Origin: Cytophagaceae bacterium
GTDB taxonomy: Bacteria > Bacteroidota > Bacteroidia > Cytophagales > Spirosomataceae
Assembly (NCBI GenBank): GCA_005791165.1
Contig: SXXW01000007.1
Location: forward strand, 1-64,000
Length of the DNA stretch: 64,000 nt
Direction: 5' to 3'
Position numbers and translations under genes: made by a program. Positions within the stretch are counted from its first letter, which is position 1, and every line of letters starts with the position of its first letter. Shown here piece by piece: positions 11,463 to 32,217 of the stretch. The notes under the pieces are model-generated. The model was not told the origin of the DNA and made no database searches. It saw only the letters and a list, made by a program, of their open reading frames with translations.

Positions 11463-13016
11463 ATGAAGAACGTAATTGTATATAGTAGGGTGTCAACAGA
11501 TGAACAGGCACAAATGGGGCATTCATTGGATTATCAGGAGGAAACCATCATAAGACATTGTACATTCAAAAACTACAATGTGGTCAAGTGTTTTCAAGAA
11601 GACTACTCGGCCAAAGATTTTGAACGACCTGAATGGAAAAAGATATTGGCCTTTATTAAATCAAGTCAAAAAACATCACTAGCAATTGACAGCATCGTGA
11701 TATTAAGACCTGACCGCTATTCAAGAAATCTGATTTTATCATTCACTGAAACAACTAAACTTGCAGGATTAGGTTGTGAGGTTGAGTTTGTTGAAGGACA
11801 AGTGGATGACTCAAGTCCTGATGCACTTTTACTCCAAGCGATAGGTTATGCGCTTCCACAGGTTGAGAACTCGAAGATTAGTCGCCGTTCTAAAGAGGGG
11901 TCTCACAAGGCTCGTAAAAGTGGATGTTTTACAGGGATTGCACCAAAGGGTTACAAGAACTTTAGGCTTGATACAAAATCAACATTAGAATTCAATGAGG
12001 ATGCACCATTAATTCGAGAAGCATTTGAGAGAATGGCGAGTGGTACATATAGTGCAGATGAAATTAGACGTTGGTTAAATTCAAGAGGGATGACCTTGTC
12101 AAAAAACACATTCCTTGATATTATTCGTAACGTCACTTACACCGGCAAAATTAGGGTTAGGGAATTCAATGGAGAACCTGAACAAATTGTTCAAGGTTTA
12201 CATCCTGCATTGGTAACTGATGAGGTTTTTGCAACAGCCAATGATGTTCTTAAAGGTCGTAGACGTAATATGAAGTTTAAAGATGATAAGGCTGACCTAT
12301 ATCCATTGAAGGGACACTTAATGTGTCCAATTCACGGAAGAACATTGTCTGCATATGGTTCTAGGAGTAGAAATGGTCAGATATATCATTACTACGTTTG
12401 TACCAAGAACAGATGTCCACGATACCCAATTGACTACGCTCATAGTGAAATTGAAAGATTACTTGGTGAGGTGCAATTCTCCGCTAGAGTTATTAAGTCA
12501 TATCGTTCCATTTTAGAACGAATTTTCGAATCAGAAGACTCAAGTAGGGCAAAACTAATACAGAATACCAAAGACGAAATTCAACGTCTTAAACAACGTA
12601 AAAACCATATCCAAGACGAGTATATGGATGGGAAGATTTCATCCCTTGAATATCAAGAGTTGAAGATGAGCCTTGACACAAAAGTCTTTGAAAAAGAACG
12701 TTCCTTGAAGGAGATGAATGAAGAACTATCCCCTTACAAAGAATACTTGAATAGACACGTACCTGCATTGGAAGATTTAACCTCATTATATCAAAAAGTG
12801 GATGGTAAGACGAAGAAACAGATATTGAGCTGCATCTTTTCTGAAAAAGTCCATTTTGAAAATGGAAAAGCTGCAGCACCCAAGTACACACCACCGATTG
12901 AGGTTTTAATCAACGCCAGAGGGGTTTTGGAGGGTTCTAAAAACAAAAAAGAGACTATTTCTAGTCTCTTGTGCACTCTGGCTCCCTCTCTTGGGCTTGA
13001 ACCAAGGACCCCATGA
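11463..13016 (+). CDS. Large serine recombinase / integrase
   Basis: About 517 residues from the ATG at 11463; the frame is open further upstream, but this start follows the previous stop by one base and gives the expected N-terminus MKNVIVYSRVSTDEQ. The catalytic serine is Ser11. The resolvase core is followed by a recombinase domain, a zinc ribbon (CPIHG...CTKNRC, about residues 285-320), and a C-terminal coiled coil (KDEIQRLKQRKNH...). Such enzymes integrate and excise elements without accessory ligase. The last 12 codons (APSLGLEPRTP plus stop) are read from the complementary strand of tRNA-Asn. The native C-terminus may therefore change when the element excises. It is probably the integrase of the island. 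Confidence 0.92.
   Translation: MKNVIVYSRVSTDEQAQMGHSLDYQEETIIRHCTFKNYNVVKCFQEDYSAKDFERPEWKKILAFIKSSQKTSLAIDSIVILRPDRYSRNLILSFTETTKLAGLGCEVEFVEGQVDDSSPDALLLQAIGYALPQVENSKISRRSKEGSHKARKSGCFTGIAPKGYKNFRLDTKSTLEFNEDAPLIREAFERMASGTYSADEIRRWLNSRGMTLSKNTFLDIIRNVTYTGKIRVREFNGEPEQIVQGLHPALVTDEVFATANDVLKGRRRNMKFKDDKADLYPLKGHLMCPIHGRTLSAYGSRSRNGQIYHYYVCTKNRCPRYPIDYAHSEIERLLGEVQFSARVIKSYRSILERIFESEDSSRAKLIQNTKDEIQRLKQRKNHIQDEYMDGKISSLEYQELKMSLDTKVFEKERSLKEMNEELSPYKEYLNRHVPALEDLTSLYQKVDGKTKKQILSCIFSEKVHFENGKAAAPKYTPPIEVLINARGVLEGSKNKKETISSLLCTLAPSLGLEPRTP
12939..12970 (-). terminator. Terminator of tRNA-Asn, embedded in the recombinase frame
   Basis: A perfect 9-bp hairpin, AAGAGACTA (12949-12957) and TAGTCTCTT (12962-12970) with a four-base loop, is followed on the minus strand by a T-rich run. 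It sits 9 bases past the tRNA CCA end and fits an intrinsic terminator for the tRNA. It also lies inside the coding sequence of the large recombinase on the opposite strand. Confidence 0.75.
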
Positions 13017-13055
13017 TTAACAGTCATGTGCTCTAACCAACTGAGCTAAGAAGGA
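12979..13055 (-). tRNA. tRNA-Asn (anticodon GTT)
   Basis: A full cloverleaf is visible on the minus strand. The acceptor stem TCCTTCT (13049-13055) pairs with AGAGGGA (12983-12989). The D arm contains AGCTCAGTTGGTTAGAGC. The anticodon stem CATGA/TCATG encloses CTGTTAA, with anticodon GTT at 13019-13021. The T arm is CTTGG-TTCAAGC-CCAAG, and the discriminator is G. A CCA end is encoded at 12979-12981. The 3' half is overlapped on the other strand by the end of the large serine recombinase, pointing to this tRNA as the integration target. Confidence 0.96.
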
Positions 13056-24430: not shown

Positions 24431-25945
24431 TTATTTTTTTGCATTGTTCAGCATCGTCCGTACGTCACTTACATGCAAACTACTTGGATATTGTTTGATA
24501 AACAAAAGAAAGGGCTCGCTATTAGTCGAATCGGCCAACGTTAAATAATAAAACAACGCGTCGTCACCATAAATATCCTCCGGAAACTTTTTAAAAATCT
24601 CCCAATAGATTTCTTTTGCAAGCGCATTGTCGCCTTTTTGCCTCGCCCGGGTTGCCCTAAGGTATAAAATATCATCTTGTAGGCTTTCTTGCTTGTTTTC
24701 TGTTGTCAAGAGAGCTAACAACGAATCGCCTTCTTCCCATCTTTTTTGATCATACATAAATTTAATGTTGGCAAATTTTTTCAAACCCAACTCCAATGAA
24801 TCTATTCCTGTGTTATCCTCAATGAGCAGGCTTAATTCCAGCGCGTCGTTGGCAATCTCCCTTTGGGTCCCTTGTTTTAGAATGTCTGCGAGCTCTTTGG
24901 CTAATTCAAAATCGCCTGTGTAAAAATACAGTTTAGCCGTTTTTATTTTTGCTTCATAAGCTAGTGGCGAATCTTTTACCTGCTTTTCAACTTGCGCGTA
25001 TTGAATTAATGCATCATATTTTTTACCCTTATACGTTAAGATGTCTCCAAGCTCCAGTTTCATTTGAGCCTGTAAATTATCATCGCTTTGCGTCAACAAA
25101 ATTCCTTTGTTTAAAACCAAAACCGCCGAATCTAATTGCTTAAGCTGATAGGCATACAATTTTGCTTCCTGCCAATATGAACTCATTGATATTGCATTAT
25201 CCCCTCGTTCATTTCTTAATTTTTGATAAGCGCTAATTAAACTCCTGACTTCGGCTATTTCAGGCTTTTCCTTTCTTAATACAACTTGCTCTCGGGCGGC
25301 AATGGACATTTGTTGCCAACGAGGCCTTTGGTTAGAACTTGGATAGCTTTTAATCAAATAATCAAATATTTGACTGGCCAAGGACCATTGCTGACTTTGA
25401 AAAATATACGAAGCAAATTCTAATACACGCTTACCTTGCTCATTTTTAAACCGCATGTCCAAAGCCCTTCGCTGATACCATGCCTTTTCCCAGTTCCCAT
25501 TAAAAATATAAGTACTCACCAATAACTCGATAAAATTTGGGTCATCTGGATATTGTTGGATTTTTTGAATGAATAAACGCTCGACTTCCAAAAACGGAAT
25601 TTGTTCTTCATATAAGCGATATGCAAATTGCTGCGCTAAAGATATATCTCCTGTTTTTAATAAGTTATCCACATTTTTTCCACACTCATCAAGCCATATT
25701 GATGCTAAATTATCCTCATTAAATAAATTATATGAATAATTTGAAAATAAATCACCAGTATTTACCTGATTATTGATAAATTCTCCCATTAATTTCAAAC
25801 GCTTTTTTTCGTTTTTAATTAATTGAATGGATTTGAATTCAGATTTGAATTTTTGATTGGATGTAGAATCTTGACGAATAAAGGGATGATCAAATCCGAG
25901 GACTTGATTAAAAATGAGACAGAAAAGAAAACACTTTATCCACAT
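24431..25945 (-). CDS. Tetratricopeptide-repeat exported protein
   Basis: A 504-residue protein with an N-terminal signal (CFLFCLIFNQVLGF). It is built of helical TPR-like repeats, for example KAWYQRRALDMRFKNEQG, ALIQYAQVEKQVKDSPLAYE and DFELAKELADIL. It probably acts in the periplasm as a scaffold. The ATG at 25945 is itself part of the leftmost DnaA box of the origin (25936-25944), so its promoter must lie inside the DnaA-box cluster. Its direct function is not known. Confidence 0.8.
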   Translation of the reverse strand: MWIKCFLFCLIFNQVLGFDHPFIRQDSTSNQKFKSEFKSIQLIKNEKKRLKLMGEFINNQVNTGDLFSNYSYNLFNEDNLASIWLDECGKNVDNLLKTGDISLAQQFAYRLYEEQIPFLEVERLFIQKIQQYPDDPNFIELLVSTYIFNGNWEKAWYQRRALDMRFKNEQGKRVLEFASYIFQSQQWSLASQIFDYLIKSYPSSNQRPRWQQMSIAAREQVVLRKEKPEIAEVRSLISAYQKLRNERGDNAISMSSYWQEAKLYAYQLKQLDSAVLVLNKGILLTQSDDNLQAQMKLELGDILTYKGKKYDALIQYAQVEKQVKDSPLAYEAKIKTAKLYFYTGDFELAKELADILKQGTQREIANDALELSLLIEDNTGIDSLELGLKKFANIKFMYDQKRWEEGDSLLALLTTENKQESLQDDILYLRATRARQKGDNALAKEIYWEIFKKFPEDIYGDDALFYYLTLADSTNSEPFLLFIKQYPSSLHVSDVRTMLNNAKK

Positions 25946-26239
25946 AGTATAATTAAAAGAAATAAAAATTTAAATATATCTTTTTTGTTCTTCATTATTG
26001 TTCTCTGTGGATAAGTGTATAAGTATTATTTAGGTTTGTAATGAGCAGATATTTAAACACTTAGAATTTATAATTTACTTTTTACTATGTGGATAAGTTT
26101 TCATTTGACTGTGGATAAATAGAGACTTATCCACATGTTCGTGGTTGTTTTTAATTGTGCACAATTAGCCTTAATTTTTGTGGATAATATGTGTATAATT
26201 ATGGCACTTATCCACACTAGTTTTGGGTACTTATCAACA
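25936..26239. other. Candidate chromosomal replication origin (oriC): DnaA-box cluster
   Basis: Seven exact copies of the DnaA box TTATCCACA occur in about 280 bp: forward at 25936-25944, 26127-26135 and 26208-26216; reversed (TGTGGATAA) at 26006-26014, 26088-26096, 26110-26118 and 26179-26187. A near-consensus box TTATCAACA is at 26231-26239. The stretch 25946-26005 is extremely AT-rich and suits a DNA-unwinding element. No credible gene covers 25946-26216. A 9-mer of this type is expected by chance about once in 130 kb per strand, so this density is a strong signal. mnmG, a classic origin neighbour, and three parS sites lie 2.5-6 kb to the right. Confidence 0.88.
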
Positions 26240-27854
26240 AATCAGTTATTTGAAAATTGGCTTTTAGTTTTACTTTTCCTTCTAAGTAAAACACGCTTTC
26301 GGGCTTTGTTTTTAGAATAAAATTACCAATGTCCCTATATCCATTTTTATTCTTATCCTCTATAGCTCTAATGATATAGATACCTGGTTCCACATGTAAA
26401 AAATTAAATTTTTGGCTTGTGTTCTGTTCATATAAGACTTGCATGTTAGATGCATTAAGAAGCTGAACGATGTAGTTATTTGGTTGTTCGCCCACACGAC
26501 CCTCAATGCTTCCATACTCTTCCAAATCTTGGAATTGAAAGGCTTGTTTTTGGAGGTCACTGGAATCGTTTTCTGCACTAACGAAAGCGCCCTTTTCTAA
26601 ATTCAGAAGAAACTTCTCTCGGTAAGGCAAAAAAGATCGCTTAATGGTTAACTCATTGGAATATTTGTTCCACGCGTATGCTTCATCGGGTAGCGTGATC
26701 GTTTCGTTTTCTTCCGTTTTAAATTGGACGCGCTTGCAGTCCCAGGAAACGACCGGTTTTGGAAACGTTAGGACCAGAGAATCTTCGGGTGAAACATATT
26801 TACCTTGAACGGGTAAAAAGCTTACCTGCAAGGGCGTTTGTGTAACTTTTTCTTTTCGTATTAATTCACGGAACTTTACTTTTAGGGGTATTTTATAGCT
26901 TCTGTTTAATGAATCAACAAGGTTGGCATTCAAGAATAGTGTATCTTTTACCTCTTGGTTTTTGACATAAATCCGGATGTTTTTATTTCCTTCTATCTGA
27001 TAAATTAAGTCTTTTTTATTTTCTAATTCTAATTCTTTAATGCCTCGACTCATTTCATATAGAACCGTTTTTGCTGTACTGGTTATTTTGGATATTTTTA
27101 ATGGATCAAGGTTTTGAAGTGAAATAGAAAAGTTTTTGGTTTCATTTTTATTTAAGTTAAAAAATGATTCAGTCATAAAGTCGACCGGCTCTTTATTCGA
27201 GTTGTACAATAAGTTGTTGTTGCCGTCTAGAAATGCCGCCATATAATATTTGCCCTGTGCAAGATTTTCAAGTGTATAAATTCCTGAGGTATCCGTTTTC
27301 GAGAAATAATAGGGTTTGGTCTTGTCTATTCTAAGTGTATCATTATAGGGATAAAGCCCCACTAATACATTTTCAAAAGCTTTATTTTGGTCGACCAATT
27401 TGATTTTTCCTGTAATGCTTAATGAGTCAATCGTGTTTGATGTACTAAAAACGAGCTTGATGTTTTTACCAGCATTTCTTTCTGATACATCTTCTATCGA
27501 ATTTCTAAAATTGAATGTGTAGGTCGTTTGGTCTTTTAGGGCGCTATCTAATAATATGCTTAAGCCATTTGGCCTTATACGAGTTTGGTAGGTTCCAATA
27601 TTAGGGGTAATGAGTAATTCTTGATTTAAATTTCGAACATTGATGTATTCATTAAAGGTTAGTTCTAATTTTTTCCCCTTGTAATTTATACTCTTGTTTA
27701 TCGGAATAGAGGTGACCAACTTAGGAGCGAGCGTATCTTTTTTCCCACCCGGAGGGTTAGCCATTTGGGCACAACTTTGAATGATTAAGAAAGTCGTGAT
27801 GAATAAAAAGAAAAGGAGAACAACCTGTTTACTTCGAAGATCAGACATGCTCAA
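26217..27854 (-). CDS. Ig-like-domain lipoprotein (Big_5 type)
   Basis: A 545-residue lipoprotein. After a hydrophobic signal (VVLLFFLFITTFLIIQSC) the lipobox Cys is at about residue 28, followed by AQMANPPGGKKDTLAPKLV. Residues about 40-135 are the bacterial Ig-like domain (LTFNEYINVRNLNQEL ... TYTFNFRNSIEDVSE). The rest is beta-rich, ending with a carboxypeptidase-regulatory-like segment (YIIRAIEDKNKNGYRD). This family is widely kept in Bacteroidota but has no assigned role. Its stop codon touches the origin region, and its start overlaps the upstream methyltransferase by 14 bases. Confidence 0.82.
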   Translation of the reverse strand: MSMSDLRSKQVVLLFFLFITTFLIIQSCAQMANPPGGKKDTLAPKLVTSIPINKSINYKGKKLELTFNEYINVRNLNQELLITPNIGTYQTRIRPNGLSILLDSALKDQTTYTFNFRNSIEDVSERNAGKNIKLVFSTSNTIDSLSITGKIKLVDQNKAFENVLVGLYPYNDTLRIDKTKPYYFSKTDTSGIYTLENLAQGKYYMAAFLDGNNNLLYNSNKEPVDFMTESFFNLNKNETKNFSISLQNLDPLKISKITSTAKTVLYEMSRGIKELELENKKDLIYQIEGNKNIRIYVKNQEVKDTLFLNANLVDSLNRSYKIPLKVKFRELIRKEKVTQTPLQVSFLPVQGKYVSPEDSLVLTFPKPVVSWDCKRVQFKTEENETITLPDEAYAWNKYSNELTIKRSFLPYREKFLLNLEKGAFVSAENDSSDLQKQAFQFQDLEEYGSIEGRVGEQPNNYIVQLLNASNMQVLYEQNTSQKFNFLHVEPGIYIIRAIEDKNKNGYRDIGNFILKTKPESVFYLEGKVKLKANFQITDLLISTQN

Positions 27855-28725
27855 AAATATATAAATTACTTGAATAATTTCCCTTCCCGAAATATGCGCT
27901 TATGTTGGACCACAAGCCGATAATAAACGAGCTAATAAATTTCTTCTTGCCCGTTTTATATTCGTGACTTAGCAATGAAATATAAAAACTATCAAAAATC
28001 TGACCCCTTTTTGATTTTAATTTGAAGCCATGTTTTTTAGCCAAGGACTTGATCGTGATTGGGTCGAAATGGTAGATGTGCCTTGGCACATCGTAAGCCG
28101 CCCAATGTTCTTTAAAATAGTTTGAATCAAAACTTTTTGAATTAGGCAGTGCCAAAATTAATACTCCCTCATTCGTAATCCTTGATTTAAAAAATTCGAA
28201 ATATTCGTCGAGTTCGTACACGTGTTCCAATACATGCCAAAGCGAAATCAATCTAAATTTTGCTTCTTTTGGAATAGCTTTAATCGACGGATATATGTCG
28301 ATCCCCAAGGTAGCTTCTGCTCTCGCGGCGGTGGCAGGATCCAACTCCATTCCGCTAATTTTCCAACCGGATTTTTGACAAGCATGAAGAAAATGCCCAT
28401 TTCCGCAACCAATATCTAACAGCTCAAGGTTACCCGTTTTCTCTTTCTCAATCCAGCCTGTTTTTTGTTTTAATGTAAAATTTCTAACTAGGTGGTAGAG
28501 CTTATTGATGATTCCCTCTTGGGTGTCGCTATGTGATATATAATTGTCGGACTTATAATAAGGTCCCGCTTCGTTGGCTTTTGGCCTAGGATTTGTAAAC
28601 AGTAATTCGCAGGCCTGGCAACGAGTGATCTCGAAATTTTCATTGGAGACGGTATAATCTTTTGCCGTTAAAAAGGGCAATATTTTTGTTTCACCGCAGG
28701 CAGGACAAGTGCTTAGTTTTTCCAT
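27841..28725 (-). CDS. Class I SAM-dependent methyltransferase with N-terminal zinc-ribbon
   Basis: A 294-residue protein. Two Cys pairs near the N-terminus (CPACG and CQACELLF) form a likely zinc ribbon. The SAM-binding motif I is LLDIGCGNGHFLHAC at about residue 100, with LWHVLEHVYEL as the post-II region. Such proteins resemble UbiG-like or sugar methyltransferases; the substrate is unknown. Its 3' end overlaps the lipoprotein gene by 14 bases, and it follows mnmG by 2 bases, so the three are probably one transcript. Confidence 0.85.
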   Translation of the reverse strand: MEKLSTCPACGETKILPFLTAKDYTVSNENFEITRCQACELLFTNPRPKANEAGPYYKSDNYISHSDTQEGIINKLYHLVRNFTLKQKTGWIEKEKTGNLELLDIGCGNGHFLHACQKSGWKISGMELDPATAARAEATLGIDIYPSIKAIPKEAKFRLISLWHVLEHVYELDEYFEFFKSRITNEGVLILALPNSKSFDSNYFKEHWAAYDVPRHIYHFDPITIKSLAKKHGFKLKSKRGQIFDSFYISLLSHEYKTGKKKFISSFIIGLWSNISAYFGKGNYSSNLYIFEHV

Positions 28726-28727
28726 GA

Positions 28728-30587
28728 TTATCGACCCATAAACAAAAGTAAAATGGAAACATCAGAAGCCGAAACTCCGGAAATCCGACTTGCTTGGCCA
28801 ATGGTTTCTGGCCTAATGGCTTTTAGTTTTATTCTTGACTCTGTGGACAAGGTTTTGATTTTATCATAATCAAAGTTTGCGGGAATACTTAAGTCTTCCA
28901 TGGTTTTCATTTTGTCTACCATCAGCCTTTCCTTCTCTATATAGCTCTCGTATTTTACAATGATTTCCACTTGCTCTAATTCCTCATTCGTATAGCCGTT
29001 TTTAATTTCTTTGAAATGCTCATTGGTCAGCAATGCCTCAAAACTTAAATCAGACCGCCTTAATAAATTAACTAATGGCGTGCCTTCTCGGATGGGAGAA
29101 CTTTGATTATTTTCAAGCCAATCGTTTATATTTTCAGGGCGAATTTTAATCGTTTTTATTTCATTCATGAGAGCAGCCACATTCGATTTTTTCTGAACGA
29201 AGCGATCCATTCTTTTTTGAGTGGCTAGGCCCAGTTTATATCCTTTGTCGGTTAATCGCTCATCCGCATTGTCTTGTCTGAGCAAGGTTCTAAACTCCGC
29301 TCTCGACGTAAACATACGGTAGGGCTCATCTGTTCCTTTGTTGATCAAGTCGTCAATCAAAACACCTATGTAGGCATCTGATCTCGACAAGGTAAAAGGA
29401 TCTAAATGATGTGTTTTTTGGTGGGCATTAATCCCCGCCATGAGTCCTTGGCAAGCCGCCTCTTCATATCCCGTTGTCCCATTTATTTGGCCCGCAAAAA
29501 ATAGACCGGGAATTTTTTTAGTTTCAAGCGTCGACTTTAATTGGGTCGGCGGGAAATAGTCATATTCAATCGCATATCCAGGCCTAAACATTTTAGCTTT
29601 TTCAAATCCCGGAATTAAACGAATCGCCTCAAATTGTATTTCTTCGGGCAAAGATGTCGAAAAGCCATTGACATATATTTCTACGGTTCGCCAGCCTTCT
29701 GGTTCCACAAAGATTTGATGGCTGTCTTTATCGGCAAAGCGATTAATTTTATCTTCAACGGATGGACAATAACGCGGCCCTAATCCTTTGATTCTGCCAG
29801 CAAACATGGGTGATTTATCAAAGCCTTTTCTTAATGCTTCGTGAACTTTTAAATTCGTATGCGTGATCCAGCAAGAGCGCTGTTCCTTAATATGGGTCTC
29901 GCTCAAATATGAAAAAGAGCTTGGGTTTTCATCTCCCTTTTGCTCTTCCATCGCAGCATAATCTAAGCTCCTTCCGTCTACCCTAGGCGGCGTGCCGGTC
30001 TTCATTCTGCCCGACTCAAAACCCAACTCAAGCAATTGTTCTGTAAGCCCCAATGCCATCGGCTCCGCCATTCTTCCTCCACCAAAATTCTTCTCCCCTA
30101 TGTGAATTAAACCATTTAAAAAAGTCCCATTGGTTAACACGACACTAGGCGCAAAATAGCTCATGCCCATGCGCGTCTGGACCCCTTTTACTTCATCATC
30201 TTCTATGATGAGTTGTTGGACCGAGTCTTGCCAAAAATCAACATTCTTATTTTCTTCCAACGCCCAACGCCATTCCTCCGCAAATCTCATTCGGTCCGAC
30301 TGACACCTAGGCGACCACATCGCTGGACCCTTTGATCGATTCAGCATCCGAAATTGAATCATGGTTTTGTCGGAGATGATTCCAGACATTCCACCCAAGG
30401 CATCGATTTCCCGCACAATCTGTCCTTTGGCCACCCCACCCATGGCCGGGTTGCATGACATTTGCGCAATGGTTTGCATGTTCATCGTAATGAGCAAAAC
30501 GCGCGAACCCATTTGTGCTGCCGCATGTGCAGCCTCACAACCTGCGTGTCCCGCTCCTACTACTATGACATCATATGTATTTTGCAT
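28728..30587 (-). CDS. mnmG: tRNA uridine-5-carboxymethylaminomethyl modification enzyme MnmG (GidA)
   Basis: A 619-residue FAD protein. The N-terminal dinucleotide motif is VVGAGHAGCEAAHAAAQMG, followed by the family signature NPAMGGVAKGQIVREIDALGG in part, and a C-terminal helical domain ending SGVSASDVSILL. With MnmE it installs the cmnm5 group on the wobble uridine of several tRNAs. Its closeness to oriC is a long-known feature in many bacteria and supports the origin call. A TAAATTTG -7 box (30589-30596, minus) ends one base from the ATG, and a perfect parS lies immediately upstream. Confidence 0.97.
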   Translation of the reverse strand: MQNTYDVIVVGAGHAGCEAAHAAAQMGSRVLLITMNMQTIAQMSCNPAMGGVAKGQIVREIDALGGMSGIISDKTMIQFRMLNRSKGPAMWSPRCQSDRMRFAEEWRWALEENKNVDFWQDSVQQLIIEDDEVKGVQTRMGMSYFAPSVVLTNGTFLNGLIHIGEKNFGGGRMAEPMALGLTEQLLELGFESGRMKTGTPPRVDGRSLDYAAMEEQKGDENPSSFSYLSETHIKEQRSCWITHTNLKVHEALRKGFDKSPMFAGRIKGLGPRYCPSVEDKINRFADKDSHQIFVEPEGWRTVEIYVNGFSTSLPEEIQFEAIRLIPGFEKAKMFRPGYAIEYDYFPPTQLKSTLETKKIPGLFFAGQINGTTGYEEAACQGLMAGINAHQKTHHLDPFTLSRSDAYIGVLIDDLINKGTDEPYRMFTSRAEFRTLLRQDNADERLTDKGYKLGLATQKRMDRFVQKKSNVAALMNEIKTIKIRPENINDWLENNQSSPIREGTPLVNLLRRSDLSFEALLTNEHFKEIKNGYTNEELEQVEIIVKYESYIEKERLMVDKMKTMEDLSIPANFDYDKIKTLSTESRIKLKAIRPETIGQASRISGVSASDVSILLLFMGR

Positions 30588-30628: not shown

Positions 30629-31051
30629 TTATATGTTTTTAAGGTGTTCGTTTTCCTTATTTCGCATCAACTCTTTTTGCGCCTTGTCTTTGTCTTTGTA
30701 TCCGGCAAGATGCAATAAACCATGAACCATCACTCGCTTTAATTCGGAGTCTTTGGTGTCAAATTTTATCGCATTGTCACGCACCCTTTCAATGGAAATA
30801 AATATATCCCCCTCAATCATTTTTGGATCTTCTGAATTGTCAAAAGTGACAATGTCGGTTAAGGTGTCGTGGCCCAAATACTTTTGATTGATGTCCAATA
30901 AATAGGCATCCGAACAAAATATATAATTCAGCTCTCCTATGGCAAAGCCTTCTGCCTTGGCCGCATCTTTTAACCAGGCCTTGTGCTTTAGCTTTTCCTT
31001 TAACCCAAATGCTATGTCTTCTGTTAGGAATGTGATCATATTTAATTTCAA
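30629..31051 (-). CDS. ybeY: Endoribonuclease YbeY (rRNA maturation)
   Basis: A 140-residue metalloprotein. The motif DTLTDIVTFDN and the metal-binding HGLLHLAGYKDK are diagnostic. In the usual HxxxHxxGYDH pattern the third ligand is His; here the corresponding residue is Asp, a variant I recall from other Bacteroidota. YbeY acts in 16S rRNA 3' processing and ribosome quality control. The frame starts at 31051, with a possible second ATG at 31039. It is 9 bases after yraN. Confidence 0.93.
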   Translation of the reverse strand: MKLNMITFLTEDIAFGLKEKLKHKAWLKDAAKAEGFAIGELNYIFCSDAYLLDINQKYLGHDTLTDIVTFDNSEDPKMIEGDIFISIERVRDNAIKFDTKDSELKRVMVHGLLHLAGYKDKDKAQKELMRNKENEHLKNI

Positions 31052-31455: not shown

Positions 31456-32217
31456 ATGATTAGAAGTGTTGAATCCCATATGTACCATCAGAACAAAAAA
31501 GTCCAAGTAGTTGATTTAAATCTTGCCCCCTACCAAGAAGCATGGGATATGCAAGAAAGGCTTATGTCGGACATATCAGCAATCAAATTGGCTAATCGGA
31601 ATTTAGCACTGTCGGATCAAGCACTAACGCCTAATTACCTTTTGTTTTGCGAACATCCTCATGTCTATACATTAGGTAAAAGCGGAGACGTGTCTCACCT
31701 TTTAATGCAGGAAGAGTTTTTGCATACCATCAACGCAAGCTTTTTCAAAACAAATAGAGGGGGCGACATTACGTATCATGGGCCGGGCCAACTCGTTGGC
31801 TATCCTATTTTTGACCTAGAGAATTTTTACACCGATATACATTTGTACTTAAGAATGCTGGAAGAAGCCATTATTCTCACGTGCCAGGACTATGGCTTGT
31901 TGGCCGGCAGAATTAACGGCTTGACTGGCGTGTGGATTAATCACGAATCAGACCAAGCAAGGAAAATCTGCGCTTTTGGGGTGAAAGCATCCCGCTGGAT
32001 CAGCATGCATGGATTTGCATTTAATATCAAGCCCGACTTATCCTATTTTTCTCACATCGTGCCCTGTGGGATAACAGAAAAAGGAGTGACGTCTTTAAGC
32101 CAAGAACTAGGCGTTGATGTCAATGAATTAGAGGTAAAAGAAATCGTTTTAGGCCACCTTAGTGCATTGTTTGAATTTGAAATCATTCGCGTTCCACGTG
32201 AAACCCTATTCGCATAA
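31456..32217 (+). CDS. lipB: Octanoyl-[acyl-carrier-protein]:protein N-octanoyltransferase LipB
   Basis: A 253-residue enzyme with the family motif NRGGDITYHGPGQLVGYP, the segment GVKASRWISMHGFAFNI and the catalytic Cys in HIVPCGI. It transfers octanoate from acyl carrier protein to lipoyl domains in the first step of lipoate formation. The start at 31456 gives an N-terminus slightly longer than usual; the ATG at 31480 is an alternative. Its last codons contain the second parS site. Confidence 0.95.
   Translation: MIRSVESHMYHQNKKVQVVDLNLAPYQEAWDMQERLMSDISAIKLANRNLALSDQALTPNYLLFCEHPHVYTLGKSGDVSHLLMQEEFLHTINASFFKTNRGGDITYHGPGQLVGYPIFDLENFYTDIHLYLRMLEEAIILTCQDYGLLAGRINGLTGVWINHESDQARKICAFGVKASRWISMHGFAFNIKPDLSYFSHIVPCGITEKGVTSLSQELGVDVNELEVKEIVLGHLSALFEFEIIRVPRETLFA
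32190..32205. promoter_or_regulatory. parS site 2 (variant), inside the end of lipB
   Basis: The core GTTCCACGTGAAAC at 32191-32204 matches the parS consensus GTTNCACGTGAAAC, the variable third T being C as in some Bacillus sites. It is read in lipB as the codons for Val-Pro-Arg-Glu-Thr. Confidence 0.85.

Follow-up and report, generated by a model that had tools for sequence, protein, structure and literature searches.

An origin at the GC-skew switch, with multiple DnaA boxes and far from dnaA, has been described in PMC4755523, where such a distance is called common in Bacteroidetes with reference to DoriC. In Flavobacteriaceae, the corresponding sections of two studies place the origin at or beside mnmG using Ori-Finder 2022 and GC skew (PMC11278836; PMC12843772). 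In the former study, an automatic assignment that put the origin at dnaA was at odds with the skew, and the ori and ter labels in a figure legend are reversed relative to its text. The oriC of Escherichia coli and Yersinia is located between gidA and mioC according to the relevant passage of PMC10225481, and the basal unwinding system of Bacillus subtilis is given in the corresponding part of PMC8287927 as a DnaA box plus a DnaA-trio, with the trios on the 5' tail. In the literature searched, no paper pairing Aquirufa with an origin of replication was found, while an Aquirufa entry in DoriC is possible.

Here, we describe a DnaA-box cluster at 25936-26239 of a 64-kb stretch of DNA (hereinafter the window, meaning the whole stretch analysed), which we regard, with a probability of about 0.93, as the DnaA-dependent oriC of the main chromosome of an Aquirufa-like bacterium, unlinked to dnaA. 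The genome is a 2.57-Mb draft of 42 contigs, 84% complete, and the window lies within contig C33 (69,192 bases). The host was placed by its MnmG with Aquirufa and kin, as an Aquirufa-like member of Cytophagales. Its MnmG shared 97-98% identity with three metagenome genomes, two of which bear the label Spirosoma fluviale, and 85-86% with two named isolates of Aquirufa.

DnaA boxes and the AT-rich element

Seven exact TTATCCACA boxes on both strands were found by exact matching in the window within 281 bp (25936-26216), together with the near box TTATCAACA, as the preliminary description of this DNA had stated (Table 1). The whole draft contained 62 exact boxes, of which these seven form the densest cluster, and the Poisson probability of at least seven in 281 bp at the genome background rate was ~5e-20. 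An equal or denser cluster elsewhere, named in the preliminary description as a finding that would speak against its reading, was absent from all 42 contigs; the runner-up was a group of 4 exact boxes in 116 bp (C39:52240-52355). The window as a whole held nine exact boxes, compared with a mean of 0.74 and a largest count of 4 in window shuffles. The argument from chance thus held for seven boxes in 281 bp, whereas a single match to the 9-mer is, by the shuffle mean, less rare than had been implied. For the outlying box within the TPR ORF, a box at matching distance from mnmG was present in the 3 closest relatives (L042-L044).

Table 1. Positions of genes, DnaA boxes and the predicted unwinding element in the window.
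Feature	Position	Strand	Remarks
TPR-repeat protein, left neighbour	24431..25945	-	weak TPR matches; many relatives have homologues beyond the boxes
Outlying (eighth nearby) exact box	25665..25673	+	within TPR ORF
Predicted oriC core (DnaA-box cluster and unwinding element)	25936..26239		box search, stability scan, alignment
Exact DnaA box	25936..25944	+	faces into AT-rich element; overlaps first codons of TPR ORF
AT-rich DNA unwinding element, 61 bp	25945..26005		predicted; 85% A+T; stability scan
Exact DnaA box	26006..26014	-	far side of AT-rich element, facing inward
Weak box TTATACACT	26014..26022	-	2 mismatches; adjoins 26006 box, giving a near-tandem pair
Exact DnaA box	26088..26096	-	
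Exact DnaA box	26110..26118	-	left half of inverted pair, 8-bp gap
Exact DnaA box	26127..26135	+	right half of inverted pair
Palindrome AATTGTGCACAATT	26153..26166		weak box TTGTGCACA on each strand
Exact DnaA box	26179..26187	-	
Near box TTATACACA	26190..26198	-	
Exact DnaA box	26208..26216	+	touches end of Ig-like ORF
Near box TTATCAACA	26231..26239	+	within Ig-like ORF
Ig-like (Big_5) / DUF2141 protein, right neighbour	26217..27854	-	
SAM-dependent methyltransferase	27841..28725	-	
mnmG (gidA), landmark gene	28728..30587	-	TIGR00136, 847 bits (cut-off 524.85)
ybeY	30629..31051	-	

The interval 25946-26216 contained no ORF of at least 80 aa, and the ORFs that border it on either side agree with the earlier placing of the cluster in a gene-free gap between a TPR gene and an Ig-like gene. 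The AT-rich stretch that had been noted after the leftmost box was recovered by the stability scan. The least stable 61-mer of the window begins at 25944, between the two leftmost boxes, and the 61-mer at 25945-26005 ranked 4th of the 63,940 in the window. In an alignment of the window with ten Aquirufa-like loci, the AT-rich element was flanked by inward-facing boxes in all 11 sequences; the homologues of the boxes at 25936 and 26006 were each exact in 9 of the 11 and carried one mismatch in the other 2. Gene orientation turns near 31.4 kb in the window. Rfam at the gathering threshold matched nothing in the window but the tRNA-Asn (GTT) at 12979-13055, which was also the only tRNA found.

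A second conserved group of DnaA boxes was observed at G000:C39:52240-52355 (L122:7241-7356), where a PRA-PH/MazG-like gene on one side and a Cro/C1-type HTH gene on the other flank 3-4 exact boxes and the motif TTGTGCACAAGTGTGGATA. Of the 38 genus genomes searched, the present one among them, 15 carried the motif, and each of these loci had 3-4 exact boxes together with both genes. The palindrome TTGTGCACAA is common to this group and the predicted oriC. The group on C39 is possibly a DnaA reservoir or a DnaA-regulated promoter.

Position of dnaA and GC skew

The dnaA gene sits on contig C7 and not on C33, in accordance with its reported absence from the window, and no exact box was found in the 19 kb taken about the gene. 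The encoded DnaA retains the domain-IV signature GGRDHSTVIHA, which we take to be linked to the TTATCCACA box. The distance between dnaA and mnmG amounted to 0.21-0.49 of the genome in five sampled relatives. In three single-contig chromosomes of the family (G124, G190 and G051) dnaA lies 1.2-1.7 Mb from the mnmG locus, and in G007, a member of the same genus, it is at base 449, almost opposite mnmG. A search based on proximity to dnaA would miss an origin at the box cluster, as had been pointed out, though Ori-Finder 2022 is described as scoring skew, box clusters and lineage-specific indicator genes too (relevant passage of PMC10225481). Weaker second Bac_DnaA-domain matches were detected besides dnaA in 3 of 20 relatives (G066:C1:4040832-4041167, G055:C1:3035288-3035521 and G190:C1:1267644-1267946); these perhaps represent related AAA+ proteins.

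Chromosome skew was sampled in 20-kb stretches, with the mnmG stretch left out, on five chromosomes of relatives (G190, G124, G051, G028 and G007). A model with the origin at mnmG and the terminus opposite was scored with a permutation test on raw skew. Agreement was found for 18 of 19 stretches in G124, which had the cleanest skew of the five (P 0.0002, best breakpoint 179 kb from mnmG), for 17 of 19 in G190 (P 0.0002, 257 kb) and for 17 of 19 in G051 (P 0.0024, 240 kb); these three offsets fall within the sample spacing, and the switch is located coarsely. These three chromosomes have one sign change of skew near the mnmG locus and the reverse change on the far side of the chromosome, giving a clear switch at the homologous site in 3 of 5. 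The switch was partial in G028 (9 Mb), with 13 of 19 stretches in agreement (P 0.011, 972 kb), and the single-contig G007 had 25 of 39 in agreement (P 0.115, 607 kb). The skew score was higher at mnmG than at dnaA in all five sampled chromosomes.

After a crude correction for gene strand, skew on the two sides was -0.154/+0.150 in G124, -0.035/+0.021 in G190, -0.025/+0.026 in G051 and -0.018/+0.017 in G028, and it was positive on both sides in G007 (+0.011/+0.073). A block of mostly positive skew was observed in G007 (C1:250000-850000) where negative skew was expected; an inversion or an assembly error there would explain the misfit of this genome.

Within the window, GC skew at fourfold sites left of 26 kb was -0.18 for plus-strand and -0.14 for minus-strand genes, and right of 26 kb it was -0.02 and +0.12, respectively; the first 13 kb had almost none (-0.04, +0.06). 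Nine pooled Aquirufa-like loci in mnmG orientation gave -0.16/-0.05 on the left and +0.06/+0.38 on the right (the last value on 198 sites), with right-side genes slightly negative at 3 of the 9 genus loci. The minimum of raw cumulative skew in the window was at 31,670, 5.4 kb from the boxes. Skew inside the window is roughly consistent with an origin at the boxes.

These data bear on a reading in which the cluster only regulates initiation, as a DnaA reservoir or reactivation site, and the true origin lies elsewhere; datA and DARS of E. coli are sites of these kinds. The smaller conserved cluster on C39 shows that box clusters are not confined to one place in the genus, and in G124 the skew switches near mnmG without an exact box cluster there, just two near-boxes being found ~1.6-1.85 kb past the gene. 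Nevertheless, the cluster is the densest of its genome, it contains the least stable element of the window, and the skew of three relatives flips near the locus, which makes a purely regulatory role very unlikely.

The locus in related genomes

From 592 relatives confirmed in the scan of named genomes, the 80 best mnmG loci were used; 73 of these 80 contain the stretch 1.5-3.3 kb past mnmG, and three groups were drawn among them by hand. In 10 Aquirufa-like loci this stretch had 3.61 exact boxes per kb, compared with 0.027 in the rest of the locus; the corresponding values were 1.86 and 0.135 for the next 20 loci, and 0.26 and 0.032 for the remaining 43. At least 2 exact boxes were present in the stretch in 10/10, 14/20 and 5/43 of these loci, respectively, and the position of the cluster is thus conserved among relatives. 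In many Cytophagales loci, boxes were found ~2.5-3 kb beyond the 3' end of mnmG, between the Ig-like gene and usually a TPR gene. The full order mnmG-methyltransferase-Ig-like-[boxes]-TPR was found in loci of Larkinella and Fulvivirga; Runella and Emticicia had the same order except for the methyltransferase, which was missing. Among the loci with the label Chitinophagaceae, which include short ones, no homologue of the Ig-like or TPR protein was detected.

In G007, the sole single-contig genome among genus members with listed contig counts, the densest cluster sits beside mnmG, with 10 of the genome's 42 exact boxes packed into 425 bp. The only five-box group within 400 bp in G051, which has 97 boxes, also sits at mnmG, and so does the one exact triplet within 70 bp among the matches listed for G028.

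The inverted box pair was rejected as a family-wide mark: an exact pair with a 4-20 bp gap occurred in just 25 of 161 genomes, 14 of which have it no more than 5 kb past mnmG, and six of the Aquirufa genomes surveyed lacked it. In many drafts of the family, mnmG was observed at a near-constant distance of ~8.2-8.7 kb from a contig end, which suggests that a repeat, perhaps an rRNA operon, has a set place near the origin. Ribosomal RNA genes, sought in 4 genomes as a guide to orientation, gave no match in any of them.

The start of the TPR ORF at 25945 puts the boxes directly upstream of this gene, as would be the case in a DnaA-controlled promoter region. Five Aquirufa-like loci (L045, L046, L048, L050 and L051) keep the boxes with no TPR homologue found at the site, the next window protein matched there being an AMP-ligase. 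In addition, a promoter needs neither seven boxes over 280 bp nor a skew switch, and this explanation is less probable still than a regulatory site. Plasmid origins also carry DnaA boxes, but an integrated plasmid or other mobile replicon hardly merits consideration, as the flanks include housekeeping genes whose order is for the most part shared by many Cytophagales loci, a scan of ten neighbouring proteins revealed no replication-initiator family, and the genus keeps the cluster, with at least 2 exact boxes in all ten loci holding the stretch.

The origin reading and known systems

The origin proposed in the preliminary description is supported by the densest box cluster of its own genome, by the conserved site, and by a skew flip that in relatives lies near the locus and not near dnaA. 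The simplest account is a standard oriC, in which DnaA would load on the boxes and melt the adjoining AT-rich element. DnaA supplied from the distant dnaA gene would bind the double-stranded TTATCCACA boxes on both strands, and the resulting complex would melt the 61-bp element between the inward-facing boxes at 25936 and 26006. Helicases would then be loaded at the melted element, from which two forks are predicted to depart in opposite directions.

This assignment locates the origin of an Aquirufa-like bacterium and leaves the general picture of bacterial initiation unchanged. The landmark ybeY-mnmG-methyltransferase-Ig-like gene-[oriC]-TPR gene transfers, with gaps, to many Cytophagales loci, including those in drafts, and would aid metagenomic estimates of growth rate that draw on read depth from origin to terminus. 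In G124 and G051, both single-contig assemblies numbered from dnaA, the numbering begins 1.2 and 1.7 Mb, respectively, from the mnmG locus.

The opening geometry was examined with the DnaA-trio rule (three or more NAN trios within 16 bp of a box, on the strand of the 5' tail; PMC8287927), applied in both strand geometries. The set comprised 200 boxes in 37 hand-picked loci, taken from the stretch 1.2-6.5 kb past mnmG (the window, G190, G051, G028 and 33 of the best 80 mnmG loci). By the bare rule, trios stand beside three window boxes, with one run of 5 at 26127, and none of these three runs falls inside the element at 25945-26005; chance alone would give such trios at 57% of boxes, and 5 in a row at 12%. 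Over the whole set, runs of the published polarity did not exceed shuffles, which gives a canonical DnaA-trio no support above chance: runs of at least 6 occurred once vs 7.5 in shuffles, and the mean run was 2.31 vs 2.58. On the opposite strand, NAN runs of at least 6 were found at 18 of the 200 boxes vs 5.8 (sd 2.3) in shuffles. All 18 belong to 11 Aquirufa-like sequences, which are close kin, and the excess is therefore taken no further than a testable variant. In the window, 8 consecutive NAN triplets extend from each bracket box on the box's own strand. Inward boxes at both ends, with A-rich trio-like repeats on their own strands, could guide DnaA filaments onto the strand opposite to that used in B. 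subtilis, from both sides at once; we consider such an Aquirufa variant unlikely.

The likeness to the unwinding system of B. subtilis lies in the near-tandem boxes adjoining the AT-rich element. The difference is that trio runs of the published polarity are no longer than in shuffles, and that long NAN runs occur on the other strand, in Aquirufa-like sequences only.

The oriC of E. coli, with TTATCCACA-type boxes on both strands, an AT-rich element and dnaA elsewhere, resembles the present locus in all these features and in the nearby mnmG (gidA). Unlike in E. coli, two genes and 2.5 kb separate mnmG from the predicted origin here, and mnmG is oriented toward it.

A further likeness is to other Bacteroidota oriC regions given by Ori-Finder and DoriC, which likewise lie at a skew switch, with multiple boxes and far from dnaA in PMC4755523 and at or beside mnmG in the two Flavobacteriaceae studies. 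Those belong to different families; the present description covers the locus in Aquirufa-like bacteria and relatives, with the neighbouring genes and the predicted unwinding element. As an origin away from dnaA, including one beside mnmG, is already described in print for Bacteroidota in the sources cited above, the predicted oriC is a further case of a known type.
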